Shown piece by piece: positions 1,885 to 12,673 of a stretch of 24,799 bases of DNA. A model generated the notes under the pieces. It ran no database searches. It was not told the origin of the DNA and worked only from the letters and a program-made list of their open reading frames with translations. The number at the start of each line of letters is the position of its first letter. The stretch's first letter is position 1. A program made the position numbers and the translations under genes. Origin of the DNA: an uncultured Frankiales bacterium. Its GTDB lineage: Bacteria; Actinomycetota; Actinomycetes; Mycobacteriales; SCTD01. The DNA is taken from contig CAMLIA010000042.1 in the NCBI GenBank assembly GCA_946479905.1, positions 1 through 24,799 of the forward strand, given 5' to 3'.

Positions 1885-4800
1885 GTGAGCAACGAGCACG
1901 CCCGCACCTTCGCCGACCACCTCGCCGACTACGCGTTGGCCGGCTGGCCGTGCATCCTCCCGGTGCCGCCGGAGACCAAGAGCCCGCCACCGATCGGGTA
2001 CACCGGCGCCGAGGGCCGCGACACCGACCCGGTGACGCTCGTCGGCTGGGCTCGGACCCACGCCCACCACTCGATCGCGCTCCGCCTGCCGGACGGCGTG
2101 ATCGGCATCGACGTCGACCAGTACGTGAAGGGCGGCGTCCAGAAGAACGGTGCGGCGACGCTCGCCGTGCGGCTCGCCGAGTGGGGGCCGCTGCCGGCGA
2201 CCTGGACCAGCACCGCGCGGGAGCCGGACGGCCCGAGCCGGATCTACTTCTTCCGCGCGCCGGCCCGGCGGTACGCCACGAAGCTCGGCGCCGACGTCGA
2301 GGTGATCCAGCGCCACCACCGGTACGCCGTGGTCTGGCCGTCACCGCACAAGGACGCGGGCACCTACACCTGGTACGACCCGGCGGGCCGGCCGAGCGCG
2401 CAGCCGCCGAAGCCCGACGAGTTCCCGTGGCTGCCGCAGGCGTGGGTCGACGGCCTCGCGGAGGGCGCCACCAGCACCAGCGCCGCCTCCGCGCCGCGTG
2501 AGGCGGGCCAGTCGCTGCTCGACCAGCTGCTGGACGACTTCCGGCCCGAGTGCGCCGACGTCACCAGCGCGCGGCTGCAGGCCGTCGAGCTGCTCGGCCG
2601 CGCGGACGCCGGCTCGCGCCACGACGCCATGACCGAACGCACTCACCACCTGGTGCAGCTGGCAGCCGCCGGGCACACCGGCGCCGGCGCGGCGCTGCTG
2701 GAGCTGCGCCAGCTGTGGGAGACCGTCACCGCCGGCGAGGACCGCGAGGACGAGTTCCAGCGCGCGCTGCTCACCTCCGCGCGCAAGGCCGTCACCGTCG
2801 TCGGGCCGGTCCAGGTGCCCAACGACCCGTGCCTGCTGGTCGCCGGCGGCTTCCCGATGCCGCCCACTGCCCCGGGCGATCCCGGAGACAGCCCCACGGT
2901 CGTCGACGAGGACGGCCAGGAGCTCGTGCTCCAGATCGCCGAGCCGCCCCGGTGGCAGGGCATCCGTCAGGTGATCGGGGCCCACACCTTCGACCCGAAC
3001 GCCGGCCTCGACCAGCCCCTGGCCGAAGCGGTGCTGGCCCGGACCTACCCGGCACTACGCTACGCGTACGACGCCGACGGCTGGCTGGTCCGGGCCCCGC
3101 AGCGCTGGGAGCTGCACAAGCGCCTGTCGCCGTGGGCCGTGGCCCAGGTGGCGCCGCTCATGCCGTCCGGCGACCCCTCGGCGGAGAAGGGCAGCGAGCA
3201 GTTCGAGCGCGCGAAGCGCCGGGCCCGCTTCATGACCGCGGCCGGGGCGAGCGCCGTCGCCAAGATGATGGACCACCTGGTCGCGGGCGGGATGCACCCG
3301 GCCGCGATCGCGCTGGCCGACCTGGACAGCGACCCCGAAGTGCTCTGGGCCGGCGGCGTGCCGTGGTCGCTGCGCTTCTCGGACAGCGTCCCCGTGAGAG
3401 CGGAGCACGTCGACCTGGCGACCCCGCACCTCCACAACGCCGGGATCACGCCGGAGCCCCGACCGACCCCGCTGTGGGACGCGTTCCTGGCCGCGGTGTG
3501 GCCCGACCCGGAGATCCGGGCCTGGTCGCTGCGCGTGCTGTCGATCGCGCTGACGGGGTACGCCGACCGGGCGCTGCCGATCCTGATCGGAGAGACAGGC
3601 CGCGGCAAGACGCAGGTCGTGCACCTGCTGATGAGCGTGCTCGGCTCCTACGCCCACGCCGCAGACTCCCGGCTCCTGACCCCGGGCGGGGAGAACGCCC
3701 ACGCGAGCATCGTCTACGCGCTGAAGGGCCGGCGGCTCTCGTTCATCGACGAGGGCCCGCGGGAGGGCAAGGTCGCCCAGGAACGGCTCAAGCAGCTGAC
3801 AGGCGGCGGCGAGCTCACGGCCAACCAGATGAACCAGAACCCGATCACCTTCCGGCCCAGCCACACCGTGGTGCTCACGACCAACGACGAGCCCCCGCTG
3901 ACCGACCCGGCCGTACGGGCTCGGTCCCGGCTGATCCCGTGCGACGGCGACCCCGAGGCCGTCAAGACGGCTCGAGCGGCCATCGGCCACGTCTCCGGGG
4001 CGGCGTGGCGGCGGGAGGCGCCCGGCGTCCTGGCCGCGATGATGGCCCAGGCCGCGGCGTGGCTGGCCGACCCCGACACCGCGCTGGTCACCGCGGCGCC
4101 CGAGAGCATCCGGTACCTGGCCGAGCGCATCGGCGCGGAGCAGGACCCGATCTCGCGGTGGGTGGCCGACGAGACCGAGCCGTTCGAGCCCGGCACCTCG
4201 AGCAGCGAGCTGTACCAGGCGTTCACGTCCTCCTGCCTGCGCAACAACCTGCGCAAGGACGCGATCCCGAGCGTCACGAAGTGGGGCAAGGTGCTGACCC
4301 AGCTCGGCTATCCCGCAAGCCACGGCCAGTACGGCAAGAGCCGGCCCCTGAGGCTGCGTACGGGGGGCTTCCTGCCGGGCATGGGACCCCTGACGGGTTC
4401 GGACACCGCAACCCGTCAGCCGGCCGGTCAGCCGCAGGCCGCTCCGGCCGATTCCGGGGCGCCTGCCGAATCCACGGGGACCACCAACAGAACGGGTGGG
4501 GGGTTCGCTGACGGGTCTGACGGGTCGCTGACGGGTTCAGAGGCCAACCCGTCAGGTGCGTTTCCGCAGGTCAACCCCACCGTTTATGTTGATCCTGACG
4601 GGTCTGACGGGTTGGAACAGTTCTCTACGCATGTGCACGCCCACACACACGCGCACAAGACGCCAACCGGGATTTCTTCCCAACCCGTCAGCCGTACTGT
4701 GGCGAACCAGGCCCAGAAGCCCACTCGGAAGCGGACCGAGCCGGACCCCGACAAGGCCGCCACGGCGCGGGCGAAGCGAGCCGAGAAGGCCGAGGAGAAG

Positions 4801-6663
4801 CGCCTCGCGGCGATCACCGAGGCGGCCGGCCCGACGGTCGAGCTCCCGGCGATCGTCCTGCGCGACGGTACGGTCCGGCCGATTGACCTGGCCGACGCCG
4901 ACCAGCTGTTGGCAACGATCACGGGTGAGGCGGGCCACGGGGAGCTTACGGTCGACGTCGAACACACCGGCTACCCGATCGGGCATCGGCACTACGCGCT
5001 CCGGACCATCCAGCTCGGGGACGAGAACCTTGCGGTCGTGCTCGACCACGCCCAGGCCGAGCACAATCGGGTGGCCGCCAGGCACCTGAGCGCGGCCCAG
5101 GTACTCCACGCGCACTCTGCGACTGCCGACCTGGTACCGCTCGCCGTGGCCGGCCTGGTCGACGCCGAAAACGCGTGGGCCAGGATGGTTGACACCGGCG
5201 TGCTGGCCAAGATCGCGGACCCGGCGATGACCGGCAACAACGACGACCTCAAGGGCGCGGCACGGGCCGTCCTCGGTGAGGCTGCTGTGGCGCCGGCCGC
5301 CGACGAGGCCCGCGCGGCGCTGTTCAAGGCCGGGAAGTGGCTCACCGACACCGAAGTGACGACCCCGCTCGAGCGGTCCGGCTGGGCGCAGGTCGACCAC
5401 CGCACCGAGACGATGGCCCGGTACGACGGGGCCGACGTCCTCGATTGCGCGGCCCTCGCCAGGCGCCTGCCGCCGCTCGACCCCTACCAGCTCCACCGCG
5501 AGAAGACCGCGCAGAGGATGACTGCGCGCGTCGCGCACACCGGGTTCCGGTTCGTACCCGAGCAGATTGACCGGCTGCACGAGGAGCACACGATCGCCCG
5601 CGCCGACCTTGCCGACCGGATCCCGGTGGAGAACCCCGGCAGCAACGACCAGATCGGCGCGCTGATAACCGACGCCGGAGCGCAGCTGCCGCGCACCAAG
5701 ACCGGCAAGCCGTCCGTGGCCAAGGGCGTGCTCGAGCCGCTTGCCGGTGCCCGGGACTCGGCCGGGGCCTGGGTCGGAGACGCTGCCGATCCGGTGCAGC
5801 AGATGGCCCGCCTGGTGCTCGACTGGCGGCACCACGACACCGCGCTGAAGCTGTTCCTCGACCCGTGGCGTGACATGGTCCGCAACGGTGACGGGCGCGC
5901 TCGCTCGACGGTCCACACACTCGGCGCCGACACGGGACGCATGTCGTCGGTCCGGTTCAACCTCCAGCAGATCTCCCGCGAGGGCGGGATGCGTGCGTGC
6001 ATCTCGGCTGATCCCGGGCACCTGCTGATCACCGCCGACTTCTCCTCGGTGGAGATCCGCGTTGCGGCCGCACTCTCCCAGGACCAGGCCCTTATCCAGA
6101 TGCTGCTCGACGGTGTCGACCTGCACGCCGAGATCGCCAAGCTGGTCTGGGGCCCGGGCTTCACCAAGTCGAACCGATACATGGCCAAGCGCAAGGTCTT
6201 CGGACGGATCTACGGCCAGGGGCTCGACGGCATGGCTCACACCGACGGTGCCGGCTACCAGGTGGCCAAGCGCGTGATCGACGCGATGGATGCCATGACG
6301 CCCGGCCTGTCCGCATGGTCGGAGGACGTCCGGGGATCGGTTGAGGCCGGCCGGACCAGGTTCCCGACGTACGCCGGGCGCACGATCCATCTGCCCCAGA
6401 AGGCGCCGCACGCCGGCCCGAACTACGCCATCCAGGGCACCGCTCGCGAGCTGCTGATCGACGCGCTGCTGCGCTGGGCTGAGACGCCGTGGGGAGGCTG
6501 CACCCTGATGCCGGTGCACGACGAAATCCTCGGGATGGTCCCTGCCGACCAGGCGCACGAGGCCACTGCCGCCCTGGTCGAGTGCATGACCACGGAGCTC
6601 TACGGCGTACCGATCGTGGCCGCGGCTGACGAACCCAGCTTCGAGTGGAAGGACTCCGCGTGA
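1885..6663 (+). CDS. Prim-pol / SF3 helicase / DEDDy exonuclease / family A DNA polymerase fusion (1592 aa)
   Basis: GTG 1885 follows ACGGAG at 1875-1880. Residues about 8-165 are an archaeo-eukaryotic prim-pol: DxD at D76/D78, SRIYFF at 118-123, and EVIQRHH then VVWPS at 139-153. Residues about 480-760 are a P4/D5-type SF3 helicase: Walker A GETGRGKT 569-576, Walker B FIDEG with D622/E623, sensor N667 in TTNDEP. A disordered linker (about 835-985) holds a His-rich patch. Residues about 1000-1190 are a 3'-5' exonuclease with the full DEDDy set: D1024/E1026, D1082, Y1180/D1184. Residues about 1345-1592 are the family A polymerase core: TGRMSS at 1350, motif A D1385, motif B R1431-x3-K1435-x7-Y1443-G1444, motif C VHDE with D1546. 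All four active sites look intact in one frame with no stop or frameshift. It would prime, unwind, synthesise and proofread. Prim-pol plus SF3 helicase is a common phage pairing; the polymerase joined in cis is unusual. Confidence 0.93.
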   Translation: MSNEHARTFADHLADYALAGWPCILPVPPETKSPPPIGYTGAEGRDTDPVTLVGWARTHAHHSIALRLPDGVIGIDVDQYVKGGVQKNGAATLAVRLAEWGPLPATWTSTAREPDGPSRIYFFRAPARRYATKLGADVEVIQRHHRYAVVWPSPHKDAGTYTWYDPAGRPSAQPPKPDEFPWLPQAWVDGLAEGATSTSAASAPREAGQSLLDQLLDDFRPECADVTSARLQAVELLGRADAGSRHDAMTERTHHLVQLAAAGHTGAGAALLELRQLWETVTAGEDREDEFQRALLTSARKAVTVVGPVQVPNDPCLLVAGGFPMPPTAPGDPGDSPTVVDEDGQELVLQIAEPPRWQGIRQVIGAHTFDPNAGLDQPLAEAVLARTYPALRYAYDADGWLVRAPQRWELHKRLSPWAVAQVAPLMPSGDPSAEKGSEQFERAKRRARFMTAAGASAVAKMMDHLVAGGMHPAAIALADLDSDPEVLWAGGVPWSLRFSDSVPVRAEHVDLATPHLHNAGITPEPRPTPLWDAFLAAVWPDPEIRAWSLRVLSIALTGYADRALPILIGETGRGKTQVVHLLMSVLGSYAHAADSRLLTPGGENAHASIVYALKGRRLSFIDEGPREGKVAQERLKQLTGGGELTANQMNQNPITFRPSHTVVLTTNDEPPLTDPAVRARSRLIPCDGDPEAVKTARAAIGHVSGAAWRREAPGVLAAMMAQAAAWLADPDTALVTAAPESIRYLAERIGAEQDPISRWVADETEPFEPGTSSSELYQAFTSSCLRNNLRKDAIPSVTKWGKVLTQLGYPASHGQYGKSRPLRLRTGGFLPGMGPLTGSDTATRQPAGQPQAAPADSGAPAESTGTTNRTGGGFADGSDGSLTGSEANPSGAFPQVNPTVYVDPDGSDGLEQFSTHVHAHTHAHKTPTGISSQPVSRTVANQAQKPTRKRTEPDPDKAATARAKRAEKAEEKRLAAITEAAGPTVELPAIVLRDGTVRPIDLADADQLLATITGEAGHGELTVDVEHTGYPIGHRHYALRTIQLGDENLAVVLDHAQAEHNRVAARHLSAAQVLHAHSATADLVPLAVAGLVDAENAWARMVDTGVLAKIADPAMTGNNDDLKGAARAVLGEAAVAPAADEARAALFKAGKWLTDTEVTTPLERSGWAQVDHRTETMARYDGADVLDCAALARRLPPLDPYQLHREKTAQRMTARVAHTGFRFVPEQIDRLHEEHTIARADLADRIPVENPGSNDQIGALITDAGAQLPRTKTGKPSVAKGVLEPLAGARDSAGAWVGDAADPVQQMARLVLDWRHHDTALKLFLDPWRDMVRNGDGRARSTVHTLGADTGRMSSVRFNLQQISREGGMRACISADPGHLLITADFSSVEIRVAAALSQDQALIQMLLDGVDLHAEIAKLVWGPGFTKSNRYMAKRKVFGRIYGQGLDGMAHTDGAGYQVAKRVIDAMDAMTPGLSAWSEDVRGSVEAGRTRFPTYAGRTIHLPQKAPHAGPNYAIQGTARELLIDALLRWAETPWGGCTLMPVHDEILGMVPADQAHEATAALVECMTTELYGVPIVAAADEPSFEWKDSA
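4390..4691 (+). repeat. Nine CTGACGGGT(T/C) iterons, candidate replication origin inside the polymerase-fusion gene
   Basis: Direct copies start at 4390, 4508, 4517, 4528, 4595 and 4604. Inverted copies (AACCCGTCAG) start at 4410, 4546 and 4682. All are exact in the first nine bases. The pairs 4390/4410 and 4528/4546 form 10-bp inverted repeats with spacers of 10 and 8 nt. The copies fall in all three codon phases, so the same DNA encodes LTG, DGS, TRQ, NPSG or QPVS. That indicates selection on the DNA rather than on the protein. An AT-richer patch (about 4580-4594) and an alternating purine-pyrimidine tract (4626-4657) lie among them. The layout parallels the lambda origin, where iterons sit inside gene O. 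The binding protein is unknown. Origin function is an inference; the repeat array is directly visible. Confidence 0.85.
4626..4657 (+). other. Alternating pyrimidine-purine tract within the iteron region
   Basis: Bases 4626-4640 and 4642-4657 alternate strictly between pyrimidine and purine, broken only by the C run at 4640-4642. Such tracts favour non-B DNA under negative supercoiling. It encodes five alternating histidines (H916, 918, 920, 922, 924) in the disordered linker of the replication protein. A role in helping the candidate origin open is an inference. A metal-binding role for the histidines is an alternative. Confidence 0.4.
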
Positions 6664-7508
6664 TGAGCGGATCGCTCACCTGTCAGCACTGCACCGCGGA
6701 CACCGCCGGGCTGACGCTCTGCCCGCGGTGCCAGACCACCGTCCGCCGTGCGCTGTCCAACATCACCGCGTACCACGCCGACCTGTTCAGCCTGCCGGGC
6801 CGCGTGTTCGGAGTGCGCTCGTCCGCCGGGGTGTCAGATCCCACGGCCAGCGCCGTGGCCCTGAGCGCCCGCGACCAGGCCGACGACGAGGCCGCGGCCA
6901 CGAAGGCCGCGCTCTCGGTGTGGGTGCGCCGCCTGGTGCGCGACCACCCGCGGGCGTTCTACCCGACCGAGGACACCGTCGAGGCGCTGGCCAAGGTGCT
7001 GGGCCAGCAGCTGCGCGGCATCGCCACGTTCGACTGGGCGGGCGAGTTCGCCAACGACGTGCTCCGCACCGAGCGACGGCTGCGCAAGACCGTGGAGGCG
7101 AACAAGGGCCTGTGGTACGCCGGCGTCTGCGGCACGGTGACCGACGAGGAGACCGGAGCCTTCTGCACCCGCGTGCTCTACGCCGATCCAGACAAGGCCG
7201 ACGTGCGCTGCCCGGTCTGCCGCACGATCTGGCCCGTGGCCGAGCGCCGACGCATCCTGCTCGAGGCGGCCCGCGACGAGGTGACGAACGTGGCGACCAT
7301 CGCCCGGGCGTGCGCCGTCCTGCTCGGTGACCAGACCAGCCAGGCGAAGCTCGAGCGCCGGATCCAGAACTGGATCGACCGGGGCCTGATCGTGCGTCAG
7401 GGCAGCCGCGACGTCGACGGCCGGCTGCGCAAGGTGTACCGGCTCGGCGACGTGCTCGACATGCTGCTCGACACGCGAACTCGCGAGAGTGCAGGACGAT
7501 CGGCATGA
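6663..7508 (+). CDS. Zinc-ribbon and winged-helix DNA-binding protein (281 aa)
   Basis: ATG 6663 shares its A with the preceding TGA stop and follows GGAAGGA at 6647-6653, so translation is coupled to the polymerase fusion. The N-terminus is a zinc ribbon (C7-x2-C10, C20-x2-C23). The middle (about 65-145) is helical. A second Cys set (C156, C168, C183-x2-C186) forms another probable ribbon. Residues about 205-270 read as a helix-turn-helix/winged helix (ATIARACAVL...RRIQNWIDRGLI...YRLGDVLDML). A sequence-specific DNA-binding role is likely. Because it is last in the replication operon, it could bind the iterons at 4390-4691 or regulate the late genes; both are inferences. The stop overlaps an ATG at 7505 whose ORF I do not consider convincing. 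Confidence 0.8.
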   Translation: MSGSLTCQHCTADTAGLTLCPRCQTTVRRALSNITAYHADLFSLPGRVFGVRSSAGVSDPTASAVALSARDQADDEAAATKAALSVWVRRLVRDHPRAFYPTEDTVEALAKVLGQQLRGIATFDWAGEFANDVLRTERRLRKTVEANKGLWYAGVCGTVTDEETGAFCTRVLYADPDKADVRCPVCRTIWPVAERRRILLEAARDEVTNVATIARACAVLLGDQTSQAKLERRIQNWIDRGLIVRQGSRDVDGRLRKVYRLGDVLDMLLDTRTRESAGRSA

Positions 7509-8103: not shown

Positions 8104-8556
8104 GTGGCCGAGCTGAAGCGCTGCGAGGGCCCCGACTGCGAGGTCGAGTTCGAGCCGAAGCGCTCGACGGCCCGGTTCCACTCTCCGACGTGTCGCCAGC
8201 GGGCCGGCCGCGCGCGCAAGGCCGCCGAGGCGGAGGCCGCGGCCGAGAAGGACGCCGGCGGGGACGCCGAGCACGGCCTGGTCAAGGCGGTGCGCAAGGA
8301 GCTCGTCGAGGCCGAGGCCCTGGACACGGTGGCCGGCCAGCTGGCGCTGCAGGTCGCGCGCCGGATCGCTGACCCGGAGTGCTCCGGCGTCTCAGGCCTG
8401 TCGAAGGAGCTCCGCGCACTGCTCGCCGAGGCGAAGGGCGCGACGCCGCCGGACCCGGCGCCCGAGGGCGGGGCCGAGCCGGTCGAGGAAGAGGACGAGG
8501 TGACGAAGGCCAGGAGGCAGCGTGAGGAAGCTCGCCAAGCGGCTGGTCTCGCCTGA
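8104..8556 (+). CDS. terS: Terminase small subunit
   Basis: GTG 8104 with a strong AAGGAGG at 8092-8098. The 150-residue protein opens with a zinc-like motif (C7-x4-C12...C30, with ARFHSPTCR around 23-31). It continues with a helical core about 60-115 (AVRKELVEAEAL, TVAGQLALQVARRI, LSKELRALLAEA), the pattern of actinophage small terminases, and has an acidic proline-rich tail. It recognises the packaging site and stimulates the large subunit. Its last 35 nt overlap the large-subunit gene in another frame, so the two are translationally linked. The assignment rests on position and on the helical pattern rather than on catalytic residues. Confidence 0.8.
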   Translation: MAELKRCEGPDCEVEFEPKRSTARFHSPTCRQRAGRARKAAEAEAAAEKDAGGDAEHGLVKAVRKELVEAEALDTVAGQLALQVARRIADPECSGVSGLSKELRALLAEAKGATPPDPAPEGGAEPVEEEDEVTKARRQREEARQAAGLA

Positions 8557-10057
8557 CCTGGTCTGCCCCGACCACTGGTCCGGTCCTGACTGGGTCCTGA
8601 CCGACGGCCCGGCGGTCGCGGACCTGAACGCGGCGGCCGGCTTCGCGCCGGACCCGCAGCAGGAGCTCGGACTGGACCTGATCTTCGCGGTCGGCGCCGA
8701 CGGGCTGCCGGCCTGCTTCGCGTTCTGCGTGATCTGCTGCCGCCAGAACCTGAAGACGGGCCTGCTGAAGCAGTCGGCGATCGGTTGGCTGTACGTCACC
8801 GACGAGCACCGAATCGTCTGGTCGGCGCACGAGATGGGGACGACCCGGGACGCGCACGTCGACCTGACGCAGATGATCACCGACACCCCGGCGCTGTCGA
8901 AGCGACTCCCGAGGACGCCGAACCGCGGGATCTACGACGCGAACGGCCAGGAGCGCATTGAGCTCGACACCGGCCAGGTGCTGAAGTTCAAGGCGCGCAC
9001 GCTGTCCGGCGGCCGAGGCCTGACCGGCGACAAGGTGATCCTCGACGAGGCGTTCGCGCTGAAGCCGGCGCACGTCGGCGCGCTGCTCCCGACGATGACG
9101 GCCCGGCCGTCCGGTCAGGTGCTGTACGCCTCGAGCGCTGGCAAGGCCGACTCCGACGTCCTGCGTGACGTCCGGGATCGCGGCCGGGCCGGTTCGTCGC
9201 CGCGCCTGGCGTACCTCGAGTGGCTGGCCGAGCGCGAGGACTGCTCGGACCCGAACTGCGCGCACCCGAAGAACGCGAAGGATCTCGGCATCGACTGCGC
9301 GCTCGATCGCGAGCACCTGTGGCGAGCAGCGAACCCGACGATCACGACGGGACGGGTCTCGATCCAGACGATCGCCGACCTGCGGCAGGAGCTGCCGCCG
9401 GAGGAGTTCGCGCGCGAGTCGCTCGGCTGGTGGGACGAGCCGGACGCAGGCGCCGGCGCGATCTTCGGACCCGGCCGCTGGGAGGGTTGTGCGGGCGAGC
9501 CGCTACAGGAGCTCGGGCCGCCCCCGGCCATCGGCGTGGCCGTCTCGGTCGACCGGCTCGCAGCTTCGATCGCCGCCGGTTCCTCGCTCCTCGTTGCGGT
9601 CGACCCGAACGACCCCGACGCGGGCGAGGTGACCCGCCCGTTCGTCGCACCGGTCGACCGCCGGGAGGACGTCCGGTGGCTGGTCGACGAGGTGCTGCGG
9701 ATCCAGACCGCGCACGACTGCGCGGTGATGGTCGACGAGAAGGGCCCGACCGCGGACCTGATCGCAGACTTCGAGGACGCCGGGGTCCGGGTGACCAAGC
9801 TGAGCCTCTACGACTACGCCGAGGCGTGCGCCGGCTTCTTCGACGACGTACGCGACGGGAAGCTCATGCACCCGTCGGCGCCCGAGCTCGACGAGGCGGT
9901 CCGAGCCGCGGTGTGGCGGCCTGTCGGCGACAGGCGGGTCTGGGGCCGCGCGAAGTCGTCCGGAGACATCTCGATGCTCGAGGCAGCCACGCTAGCCCGC
10001 TGGGGCGTCTTCCACGGGCCGTCGGTGTACGAGAGACGAGGACTGGTGACCCTGTGA
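8522..10057 (+). CDS. terL: Terminase large subunit
   Basis: 511 residues from GTG 8522 with AGGAGG at 8512-8517. The ATPase domain has the actinophage variant Walker A CRQNLKTG (R74...K78 T79) and Walker B VILDEA with D175/E176. The nuclease domain (from about 335) offers the expected acidic positions: D344 in VSVDRLAAS, D405 in VMVDEKG and D482 in SGDISMLEA. A Cys-rich insertion (CSDPNC, about 241-246) lies between the domains. The protein drives ATP-dependent DNA translocation into the prohead and cuts the concatemer. Length and motif order are normal for HK97-type large terminases. The stop overlaps the GTG of the next gene (GTGA at 10054-10057). Confidence 0.93.
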   Translation: MRKLAKRLVSPDLVCPDHWSGPDWVLTDGPAVADLNAAAGFAPDPQQELGLDLIFAVGADGLPACFAFCVICCRQNLKTGLLKQSAIGWLYVTDEHRIVWSAHEMGTTRDAHVDLTQMITDTPALSKRLPRTPNRGIYDANGQERIELDTGQVLKFKARTLSGGRGLTGDKVILDEAFALKPAHVGALLPTMTARPSGQVLYASSAGKADSDVLRDVRDRGRAGSSPRLAYLEWLAEREDCSDPNCAHPKNAKDLGIDCALDREHLWRAANPTITTGRVSIQTIADLRQELPPEEFARESLGWWDEPDAGAGAIFGPGRWEGCAGEPLQELGPPPAIGVAVSVDRLAASIAAGSSLLVAVDPNDPDAGEVTRPFVAPVDRREDVRWLVDEVLRIQTAHDCAVMVDEKGPTADLIADFEDAGVRVTKLSLYDYAEACAGFFDDVRDGKLMHPSAPELDEAVRAAVWRPVGDRRVWGRAKSSGDISMLEAATLARWGVFHGPSVYERRGLVTL

Positions 10058-10289: not shown

Positions 10290-11723
10290 ATGTTCGTCAG
10301 CGGCGGCGCACTCGTCACGACCAAGACGCCCATCAGTCTCACGGACCCGACCTACTGGCCCTCGGTCCCGCCCATGTCGAACGGCTGGCCTTCGGCCTAC
10401 GGCGGCATGTACCGCGGTCAGCTCTGGGTCTACGTCGTGGTCGCGAAGCGCGCGAAGGCCACCGCACGCCTGCCGCTGCCGGTGTACCTCCACGACGACC
10501 AGAACCGGCCCCGCCAGGACGACCACCCGATGGCGAAGCTGCTGGCGCGGCCCAACCCGGCCATGTCGTCATTCGACCTCTGGCTCTGGACGTCCTCGAC
10601 CTTCGACATCTACGGCGAGACGTTCTGGTACAAGCAGCGGCAGGCCGGCCGGGTCGTCGGGCTCTACCCGCTGCACCCGTCCGCGATGCACCTCGACGAG
10701 CGCACCGGCCTGTGGGCGTTCGACAACGGCAAGCTTCGCCTCGAGGACATCCCGGACCGCGACCTGGTCCGCTTCCGCTCGTTCAACCCCGACAGTCTCA
10801 CCCGCGGCCTGTCGCCCCTCGAGCCGCTCCGCGCCACCCTCGAGAACGAGTGGAGCGCCCGCGCCGCCACCTCCGCGTTCTGGCGCCGTGGTGCCCGGCC
10901 GGGCACAGCCCTGGTGCACAAGGCCCAGCTGTCGTCGCCGGCCCAGGCCCGGCTCAAGGCGCAGTTCGAGGACATCTCGGCCGGCGCGGAGAAGACCGGC
11001 GTCACGGTGGTGCTCGAGGAGGGCATGGAGCCCAGGAAGCTCGACCTGACCGCCGAGGAGGCCCAGTACATCGAGACGCGGAAGCTGAACCGCGAGGAGG
11101 TCTGCGCGGCGTACGACATGCCGCCGCCGGCCGTGCACATCCTCGACCGCGCGACGTTCAGCAACATCACCGAGCAGTTCCGCTCGCTGTACCGCGACAC
11201 GATGGCGCCGCACCTGACCGGCTTCGAGTCGGCGATCGAGCGTGACCTCCGCGCGGTCGAGTGGCCGCGCGACAACGTGTACGCCGAGTTCCTGCTCGAC
11301 GGCGTCCTCCGCGGCGACTTCGAGAGCCGTCAGGACGCCCTGAACAAGGCGACGCACATGACGATCGCCGAGAAGCGCAAGGTGGAGAACCTGCCTTTCA
11401 TCGACGGTACCGACCGGATCTTCCTCAACACCGCCACGCTCCCGCTCGACGCCATCGACGCACAGGCCGTGGCCCTGACATCGGCGCTCGAGGGCCGGCT
11501 GGGCCAGGACGCCGCGGACGCACTCCCGGCCGCAGTCGCCCGCTCGGTGATGGGCCGGCTGTCCTGGCAGCAGCAGCTCGACCAAGTCGACCCGAAGGCG
11601 CTCACCGAGGACATCGACACCCCGTCGGCCGGCACCGTGCTGCAGGCCCTGGCGATCGAGAAGGCCAACGGCGGCGACGTCGCCTCCCTCCGCGACCGAA
11701 TCCGCGAACTGGCGAAGGAGTGA
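10290..11723 (+). CDS. Portal protein (HK97 family)
   Basis: 477 residues from ATG 10290 with AGGAGG at 10280-10285. Family features appear in order. They include an N-terminal segment followed by a helix of the VYVVVAKRAKATARLPLPVY type. Next comes HPMAKLLARPNPAMSSFDLW and the GETFWYKQRQ strand with LYPLHPSAM. Then SPLEPLRATLENEWSARA leads to the long stem and crown region with LNREEVCAAYDMPPPAVHIL. All are typical of HK97-type portals. Twelve copies form the DNA gate at one capsid vertex and dock the terminase and later the head-tail adaptor. The length is normal. The protease gene starts 3 nt after the stop, in the usual order. Confidence 0.95.
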   Translation: MFVSGGALVTTKTPISLTDPTYWPSVPPMSNGWPSAYGGMYRGQLWVYVVVAKRAKATARLPLPVYLHDDQNRPRQDDHPMAKLLARPNPAMSSFDLWLWTSSTFDIYGETFWYKQRQAGRVVGLYPLHPSAMHLDERTGLWAFDNGKLRLEDIPDRDLVRFRSFNPDSLTRGLSPLEPLRATLENEWSARAATSAFWRRGARPGTALVHKAQLSSPAQARLKAQFEDISAGAEKTGVTVVLEEGMEPRKLDLTAEEAQYIETRKLNREEVCAAYDMPPPAVHILDRATFSNITEQFRSLYRDTMAPHLTGFESAIERDLRAVEWPRDNVYAEFLLDGVLRGDFESRQDALNKATHMTIAEKRKVENLPFIDGTDRIFLNTATLPLDAIDAQAVALTSALEGRLGQDAADALPAAVARSVMGRLSWQQQLDQVDPKALTEDIDTPSAGTVLQALAIEKANGGDVASLRDRIRELAKE

Positions 11724-11725
11724 CC

Positions 11726-12673
11726 ATGCACGAGACCAAGATGTTCGCCCTGGGCGAGGTCAAGTCGATCGAGGACGCCAACGGCGACCCGAACGGCGAG
11801 TTCGACGTCATCCTCTCCGCGCCGACCCTCGACCGGGACGGCGAGGTCATCGACGCCCGCGTCTTCGAGCCGCTCCCGGACCACATCACCTTCGACATCG
11901 ACCACGGCATGTCCACCGCCACCACGGTGGGCAGCGGCACGCCCGAGTACCTCCCCGACGGCCGGCTGCGGGTCAAGGGCACGTACTCGTCGATCCCCCG
12001 CGCCCAGGAAGTCCGCACGCTCGTCCGCGAGGGCCACATCCGGACCACCTCGGTCGCGTTCATGGGCGCGGTGCGCGAGGAGAAGGACGGCGTCCCGCAC
12101 ATTGTGAAGGCCGAGCTCCTCAACGGAGCCTTCGTGCCGATCCCGTCCAACCGCGAGTCCGTCGTCCTGTCCGCCAAGAGCTTCGCGGAGGCCCTGGCCG
12201 CGGCCGAGGCCTCGGACGAGGACGACAAGACCCCCGAGGCCCCCGAGGCCCCCGAGGCCCCCGAGGCCCCCGAGGCCCCCGAGGCCCCGATGATGCGGAA
12301 GGCGTTCGGCATGACCGCCAACGCGCTCCGCGAGGCGCTCGAGAAGGCCGTTCGCGAGGCGCACGGCTCGACCGACGTCTACGTTTGGGTCCGCGACTAC
12401 ACCGACGAATGGGTCGTGTTCGAGCAGTACAGCGCCGACACCGAGACGCTCTACCAGCAGGATTACGCGGTCGCCGACGGCGTCGCCACCCTCTCCGGGG
12501 ACGCGGTCGAGGTGCGCGCCAGCACCGTCTACGAGCCCGTCTCCGCCGCCAAGGTTCCCTCCACCGCCCCCGAGACCCCCGACCCCGAGAAGGAGTCCGG
12601 CAAGTCTCCGGCAAGCGAAGTGGTGGACCGCCCCGTCGCGACCCGCGTCGAGGCCTTCCTGCTCTCGCTCTGA
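11726..12673 (+). CDS. Prohead (capsid maturation) protease with PEA repeat and extra C-terminal domain
   Basis: ATG 11726 is 3 nt after the portal stop, with AAGGAG at 11715-11720. The N-terminal 160 residues are an HK97/S78-type serine protease: H60 in FDIDHG and S109 in GHIRTTSVAF are the likely catalytic pair, with NGAFVPIPSNRESVV after them. A (PEA)6 tract (170-187) links to a second domain (about 190-280) with VYVWVRDYTDEWVVFE, a module I have seen on actinophage capsid proteases. An acidic proline-rich tail follows. The enzyme should process the capsid protein's N-terminal delta domain during prohead maturation. At 315 residues it is longer than a minimal protease; the extra part may act as internal scaffold (inference). 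Confidence 0.88.
   Translation: MHETKMFALGEVKSIEDANGDPNGEFDVILSAPTLDRDGEVIDARVFEPLPDHITFDIDHGMSTATTVGSGTPEYLPDGRLRVKGTYSSIPRAQEVRTLVREGHIRTTSVAFMGAVREEKDGVPHIVKAELLNGAFVPIPSNRESVVLSAKSFAEALAAAEASDEDDKTPEAPEAPEAPEAPEAPEAPMMRKAFGMTANALREALEKAVREAHGSTDVYVWVRDYTDEWVVFEQYSADTETLYQQDYAVADGVATLSGDAVEVRASTVYEPVSAAKVPSTAPETPDPEKESGKSPASEVVDRPVATRVEAFLLSL
12233..12286 (+). repeat. Six tandem CCCGAGGCC units (9 bp) encoding (PEA)6
   Basis: Six perfect, in-frame 9-bp units encode a Pro-Glu-Ala linker between the two domains of the prohead protease. Being perfect and a multiple of three, the tract can gain or lose units by slippage without breaking the frame, so linker length may vary between relatives. 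Confidence 0.95.

Follow-up and report, generated by a model that had tools for sequence, protein, structure and literature searches.

The fusion gene and its iteron array

The window analysed here (the whole 24,799-base stretch of contig CAMLIA010000042.1) contains a long open reading frame for a phage replication protein, and within this frame lies an array of short repeats, or iterons. The Pfam and PHROG matches of the protein are to primase, helicase and polymerase families, in the order Prim-Pol (residues 15–175), DUF5906 helicase (567–672), linker and DNA polymerase A (PolA; 1249–1578). The primase found is Prim-Pol, and no Toprim primase domain was detected in the fusion protein with Pfam at E 0.001. 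In structure comparison, the helicase model matches the primase–helicase of the Staphylococcus aureus pathogenicity island (SaPI) SaPI5 (7ola). Just upstream of the array, and C-terminal to the helicase, a winged-helix domain is encoded. Its AlphaFold2 model has a helix at residues 797–806 and wing strands at 812–814 and 817–824, and its nearest solved fold is the origin-binding domain of phage P4 (1ka8). This likeness comes from VIA-align and not from Foldseek, which returned nothing at E 0.001 or better for the model (1ka8, E 0.017). The features are as follows; the iterons are copies of CTGACGGGT.

1885..6663, forward strand: fusion gene, 1592 amino acids (open frame with an assumed GTG start; Pfam and PHROG matches)
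4150..4362, forward strand: winged-helix domain (residues 756–826), predicted binder of the array (AlphaFold2 models; best solved match 1ka8)
4321..4338, forward strand: wing codons 813 (H), 815 (Q) and 818 (K), covarying with iteron bases 6, 9 and 5
4390..4398, forward strand: iteron 1, direct
4411..4419, reverse strand: iteron 2, inverted
4508..4516, forward strand: iteron 3, direct
4517..4525, forward strand: iteron 4, direct, in tandem with iteron 3
4528..4536, forward strand: iteron 5, direct
4547..4555, reverse strand: iteron 6, inverted
4565..4573, forward strand: box CGCAGGTCA, conserved form CNCAG[GC]TCA, not an iteron
4595..4603, forward strand: iteron 7, direct, in tandem with iteron 8
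4604..4612, forward strand: iteron 8, direct
4613..4682, no strand: spacer that separates iterons 8 and 9 and contains an alternating CA/CG tract
4683..4691, reverse strand: iteron 9, inverted

The original prediction had counted nine copies, six direct and three inverted, and an exact recount agreed: all nine exact copies of CTGACGGGT lie inside 4390–4691, with none in the rest of the window. With one mismatch allowed, 19 matches were found in the window against 10.6 expected, so the clustering is a property of the exact word. The direct copies occupy two codon phases (4390 and 4528 versus 4508, 4517, 4595 and 4604) and the three inverted copies occupy all three, as had been claimed, and translation confirmed that the encoded peptides differ across the copies. 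It had been proposed on these grounds that the constraint is on the DNA. This holds up, because the codons of the peptide were shuffled synonymously 5000 times without any 9-mer rising above 4 copies and because the phases are mixed both in the window and in the arrays of homologues. The spacer at 4613–4682 sits in a G+C dip (57–60%, compared with ~71% for the window) and is a candidate melting region.

CTGACGGGT forms the top 9-mer cluster of the window, the runner-up having 6 copies at ~12.2 kb. This second repeat (12231–12288, six-copy, CCCCGAGGC-type) encodes an EAP peptide repeat in frame 11261–12673.

The 9-mer alone was rejected as evidence of an origin. A tandem CTGACGGGT pair occurs in 35 viral stretches, and a match to the fusion polymerase was found only in L007, L012, L015 and L019. 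Since collagen-like DGSDGS repeats generate tandem copies by codon choice (as in L006, L013, L014, L016, L018, L031 and L034), the word by itself says nothing of an origin. Separately, five viral contigs that lack the fusion (L008, L017, L021, L029 and L037) share a layout of two direct and two inverted CTGACGGGT copies within ~100 bases.

Arrays in homologous linkers

Homologous linkers were collected with an alignment-based scan that yielded 64 viral and 8 genome loci, many of which matched the Prim-Pol part alone. Removal of duplicate and truncated loci left 45 distinct linkers, the window's included (those removed were six duplicates, two loci lacking the helicase part and a single truncated locus). 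One relative, L102, is carried by Nocardioides sp. 503, a cultured host. Two relatives, whose best segments are 69% and 58% identical, have arrays at the same place, built of nine copies of GTGACGGGT and eight of GTGGAGGGT, respectively. Overall, a single iteron-form 9-mer was present at no fewer than four copies in 38 of the 45 linkers. In all 38 array loci the linker holds the strongest 9-mer cluster found anywhere in the locus (in L057 and L071 the cluster starts up to ~50 bases ahead of the linker), and in 36/38 the linker's top 9-mer has no exact copy elsewhere in the locus. The iteron word varies between phages and is nearly uniform within each array. It fits the pattern ACCC-5-6-CA-9, in which the numerals stand for variable bases, in 34/38 cases; the words off this pattern are ACTG-type in L047, L059 and L067, and ACCCGCCTG in L079.

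The layout recurs as well. Arrays usually open with direct copies (two or three) and a single inverted copy, after which come the box CNCAG[GC]TCA and often a T-rich stretch. A tandem direct pair follows, then a tract that is poor in G+C or made of CA/CG, and the array closes with between one and three inverted copies. Among the start-to-start distances, 11, 19, ~48, 8–9 and ~80 recur. The tandem direct pair is found in 36/38 arrays and the box in 25/38, where it occupies three codon phases (0.028 expected per linker). In 34 of the 38 arrays, the window's among them, the lowest 80-bp G+C window of the linker belongs to the bottom 2% of its locus. That frame and peptide differ while the layout recurs points to a constraint at the DNA level. 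The original prediction had proposed this comparison, with the loss of its case should homologues keep the peptide and not the DNA repeats; instead, array and layout are kept while word and peptide change.

These data bear on the alternative that the repeats are kept for the sake of the linker peptide, with the DNA merely following. Tandem copies do share a frame and encode similar peptides (DGSDGS), as selection on the peptide would have it; against this, copies lie in several phases and on both strands, in homologues too, the box occurs in three phases, and synonymous shuffles fail to yield an array. On the strength of the codon phases and the shuffles we rejected peptide-level selection, which we consider exceedingly improbable.

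Outside the fusion, no comparable array was found near the helicase or polymerase in six named phages with related genes; Wildwest, Mabodamaca and BabyYoda match both helicase and polymerase, and phiAsp2, GRU1 and NC1 show a partial match only. Other gene arrangements were also seen. In L173 (4300–4900), a helicase of another type (D5_N/DUF5906) is fused to a related PolA, and the linker holds 11 copies of GGGGGCAG (6 direct, 5 inverted), which are all the copies in the 11.7-kb locus: the place is the same and the word unrelated. In L167, L176 and L194, where other helicases precede a related polymerase, no array emerged as the top cluster. In L189 (4350–4800), a Prim-Pol/AAA_25 gene lies upstream of a related polymerase and 11 of the locus's 22 GGACAG copies fall in this interval; a continuous frame from that gene into the polymerase was not found. 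In L167 (978–5000), a helicase fusion of the D5 type contains a LAGLIDADG-like domain that may represent an intein or a homing insertion.

Covariation of wing residues with the iteron word

We compared the residues of the winged helix with the variable bases of the word in the 38 phages with arrays. The seven linkers with fewer than four exact copies were excluded from the residue–base tables, the distance correlation, the co-change analysis, the mutual information and the nearest-pair contrasts; a register shift was applied to the label of L065, and in L067 one base was treated as unknown. At residue 818, K accompanies G at base 5 in 17/19 phages (W in two) and N accompanies T in 13/19. At residue 813, T at base 6 goes with H in 18/20 and C with K or R in 12/15. 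At residue 815, C at base 9 goes with R or K in 20/23, G with E or A in 8/10 and T with M in 3/4. Corrected mutual information was 0.71 for K818 and base 5, 0.79 for H813 and base 6, and 0.90 for Q815 and base 9, each ranking first of 1425 columns, and the best columns outside the wing reached 0.39, 0.58 and 0.48, respectively.

The signal was then checked on proteins for which no DNA was available. For 116 further proteins we used codon compatibility to deduce the word from the linker peptide; in known cases this approach placed the true word among its best in 34/35. These came from P0001–P0135, of which 12 overlapped loci already used and 7 yielded no linker; among the 116 examined, 29 were unscored, having under 6 compatible sites or no unique best word, and 87 were scored. 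The rule was taken in advance from the residue–base table of the 38 phages: residue 818 K predicts G and N predicts T; 813 H predicts T and K/R predict C; 815 R/K/N predict C, E/A predict G and M predicts T. Residues absent from it (P/A/S813, G/V815 and R818) were counted as not called. Base 5 was called correctly in 85/85 (2 not called), base 6 in 73/77 (10 not called) and base 9 in 78/79 (8 not called). A rule broadened after this check and tested on the 38 DNA-known phages made 2, 5 and 0 errors at bases 5, 6 and 9, with 6, 3 and 3 not called.

Repeated change was followed by parsimony on a tree of 122 proteins (35 DNA-known and 87 peptide-inferred; the ACTG-type L047, L059 and L067 were left out). 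All 20 changes at base 5 are shared with residue 818, 32 of the 34 at base 6 with residue 813, and all 34 at base 9 with residue 815; one switch can alter two bases. By shared changes each of the three residues ranks first of 1313 columns. With the 35 DNA-known proteins alone, the ACTG-type words again left out, 818 (8/8) and 815 (10/10) still rank first. The iteron word has changed repeatedly in this family, together with the wing.

Since the wing residues covary with the iteron word, the fusion's own winged-helix domain is the predicted binder, and these sequence comparisons speak strongly for the predicted binding of the array by the fusion protein itself. We think that the nine CTGACGGGT copies are very probably the origin iterons of the phage, bound, as predicted, by the winged helix of the product of the gene in which they lie. 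It had been suggested that the replication protein is made from, and acts at, one locus; the winged-helix covariation supports this, with the origin activity of the array itself the inferred part.

Several results weigh against this interpretation. No clear array was found in 7/45 linkers (L060, L064, L068, L074, L075, L077 and L080). Further scans gave 18 loci from new contigs, in 7 of which the helicase end was found. The prediction held for L133, whose linker has the predicted word ACCCGTCAC 8 times. For L123 and L188 it held at bases 5 and 9 and failed at base 6; in L122 the wing residues are present and there is no array in the locus; and L128, L135 and L180 have no clear array in the linker. 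Base 6 was read less cleanly than bases 5 and 9 by the prior rule (73/77), and among the 35 DNA-known proteins residue 813 (8/10) came third, tied with ten others. Most labels on the tree (87/122) are peptide-inferred. Other statistics ranked the residues less favourably. In partial distance correlation neither 813 nor 815 was first, the ranking being driven by a few odd lineages. In branch co-change the top rank went to neither 813 nor 818 for bases 5 and 6; at base 9 it went to residue 785, with 815 eighth. Nearest-pair contrasts ranked 818 at the top for base 5, but 813 came just 147th at base 6, and 815 came 32nd at base 9. Mutual information and shared parsimony changes were chosen after the residue–base table had been seen, which is a weakness; the 87 proteins serve as the check.

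Alternatively, the covariation could reflect linkage: the wing codons lie 50–70 bp from the array and might travel with it without any contact, given the short distance and the frequency of cassette exchange in phages. The signal is limited to single residues for two of the bases, which argues against this. For base 9 it is 0.87 at Q815 and at most 0.14 across 810–820; for base 5 it is 0.70 at K818 and 0.51 at H813, compared with at most 0.18 at the other residues of 807–820. Linkage is less well excluded at base 6, where the neighbours 816–819 are also raised (0.37–0.48), and as an account of the whole we judge it very unlikely. The original prediction had also named the product of the next gene, 6663–7508, as a second candidate binder. 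This gene adjoins the fusion and its function is unknown (PHROG 908 match). A relative was found in just 7 of the 40 loci with enough downstream sequence, the window included, compared with arrays in 38/45 linkers, and it is the fusion's own wing that tracks the word; that this product binds the repeats is thus highly improbable.

Contact of individual wing residues with individual bases is the more likely basis of the covariation. We consider it likely, with somewhat less confidence than for the origin iterons themselves, that three wing residues each read one base in a combinatorial protein–DNA code (818 K/R with G and N with T; 813 H with T and K/R with C; 815 R/K with C, E with G and M with T), and that origins have been re-coded repeatedly. 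In each such event one or two wing residues would change and some nine sites in the same gene would follow, giving a replication identity akin to a fast-evolving replicon type, driven by phage exclusion or by nucleases aimed at the origin.

Some arrays vary at the bases concerned. In N818 arrays, copies vary between T and C at base 5 (9 copies), and K818 arrays have zero base-5 variants among their one-mismatch copies. The array of L039 mixes TC and TG words, ACCCTCCAC and ACCCTGCAC, and is accompanied by R813 and N818; its sister L038 has ACCCGTCAC together with H813 and K818. Two array variants one base apart were seen in L039 (base 6) and in L050 and L068 (base 5). While a switch is under way, a relaxed wing may accommodate both words, and these three mixed-word arrays may have been caught midway.

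Proposed mechanism and comparison with known origins

In the mechanism that we propose, the fusion protein would bind the array in its own gene through its winged helix, with residues 813, 815 and 818 contacting bases 6, 9 and 5 of ACCC-5-6-CA-9. Helicase rings would then load on the iteron sets flanking the G+C-poor stretch and melt it, leaving priming to the Prim-Pol part and extension to the PolA part of that chain. The linker would tolerate an array because its peptide is free to vary.

Binding by the own gene product would likewise yield covariation if the array were an operator, through which the fusion protein controlled transcription through its own gene and not the start of replication. 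The array lies 2.5 kb inside the gene in a two-sided layout around a G+C dip, and the winged-helix domain is similar to a helicase-linked origin-binding domain; an operator in place of an origin is therefore unlikely, although the two roles could coexist. In plasmids, iteron arrays have roles in partition, packaging or incompatibility, and the array might serve such a process, bound by the replication protein or by another phage protein. The covarying residues belong to a replicative helicase protein, however, and the terminase is encoded elsewhere in the window (8522–10057), so that we attach very little probability to this account.

An origin of the proposed kind poses a puzzle, namely how an origin with nine sites can acquire a new specificity, given that a single change in the binder ought to disable all of them at once. 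A fusion family with 20, 34 and 34 changes at three iteron bases makes this question directly testable with natural variants. Furthermore, protein sequence locates the likely origin in these phages and largely predicts its word, and in-gene origins would gain a case in which a single reading frame comprises origin, binder, helicase, primase and polymerase. No account of the window array, of an origin within a fusion of this kind or of a wing code was found in the open-licence PubMed Central (PMC) literature; compared with these open papers, the placement of an origin in a primase–helicase–polymerase frame and a residue-by-base code with repeated change look new.

The array has the clustered short repeats, beyond chance, and the adjoining A+T-richer stretch of iteron origins. 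In-gene origins are known from repA of N15 and PY54, a multidomain primase–helicase gene with the origin inside it. Lambda O resembles the fusion in having iterons within the initiator's coding sequence. Lambda O is not known to be a helicase or a polymerase; the initiator here differs in being a Prim-Pol/helicase/PolA chain. Lambdoid gene O carries iterons and an AT-rich tract mid-gene, and extra iterons lengthen the protein (PMC7466680).

Phage P4 alpha binds repeats at its own origin and has a Toprim-type primase (PMC4234260). Like the fusion, it has a winged-helix origin-binding domain after the helicase, with 1ka8 the best fold match. It differs in its primase, the fusion having Prim-Pol instead of Toprim, a polymerase fused on and the repeats within the gene. 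The earlier description of the gene as P4-type therefore stands for the helicase and the fold of the C-terminal domain and fails for the primase. SaPI Rep and Cch2 of the staphylococcal cassette chromosome mec (SCCmec) are initiator helicases that recognise, through their C-terminal domain, iterons next to the genes that encode them (PMC7581432), and in the origins of phage-inducible chromosomal islands (PICIs) two iteron sets flank an AT-rich region (PMC6092414). These Rep–ori systems share with the fusion an initiator helicase with a C-terminal DNA-binding domain, in keeping with the 7ola match. Their origin lies directly downstream of the initiator gene, whereas the window array is inside the frame, between the helicase and the fused polymerase.

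In the PICI-like elements (PLEs) of Vibrio cholerae, the RepA_N DNA-binding domain and the origin covary between types, and a nuclease of phage ICP1 mimics the RepA_N domain and cuts the PLE origin (PMC8263062). There, whole domains are swapped among a few types and the origin is intergenic; here, the array is intragenic and single wing residues track single bases.
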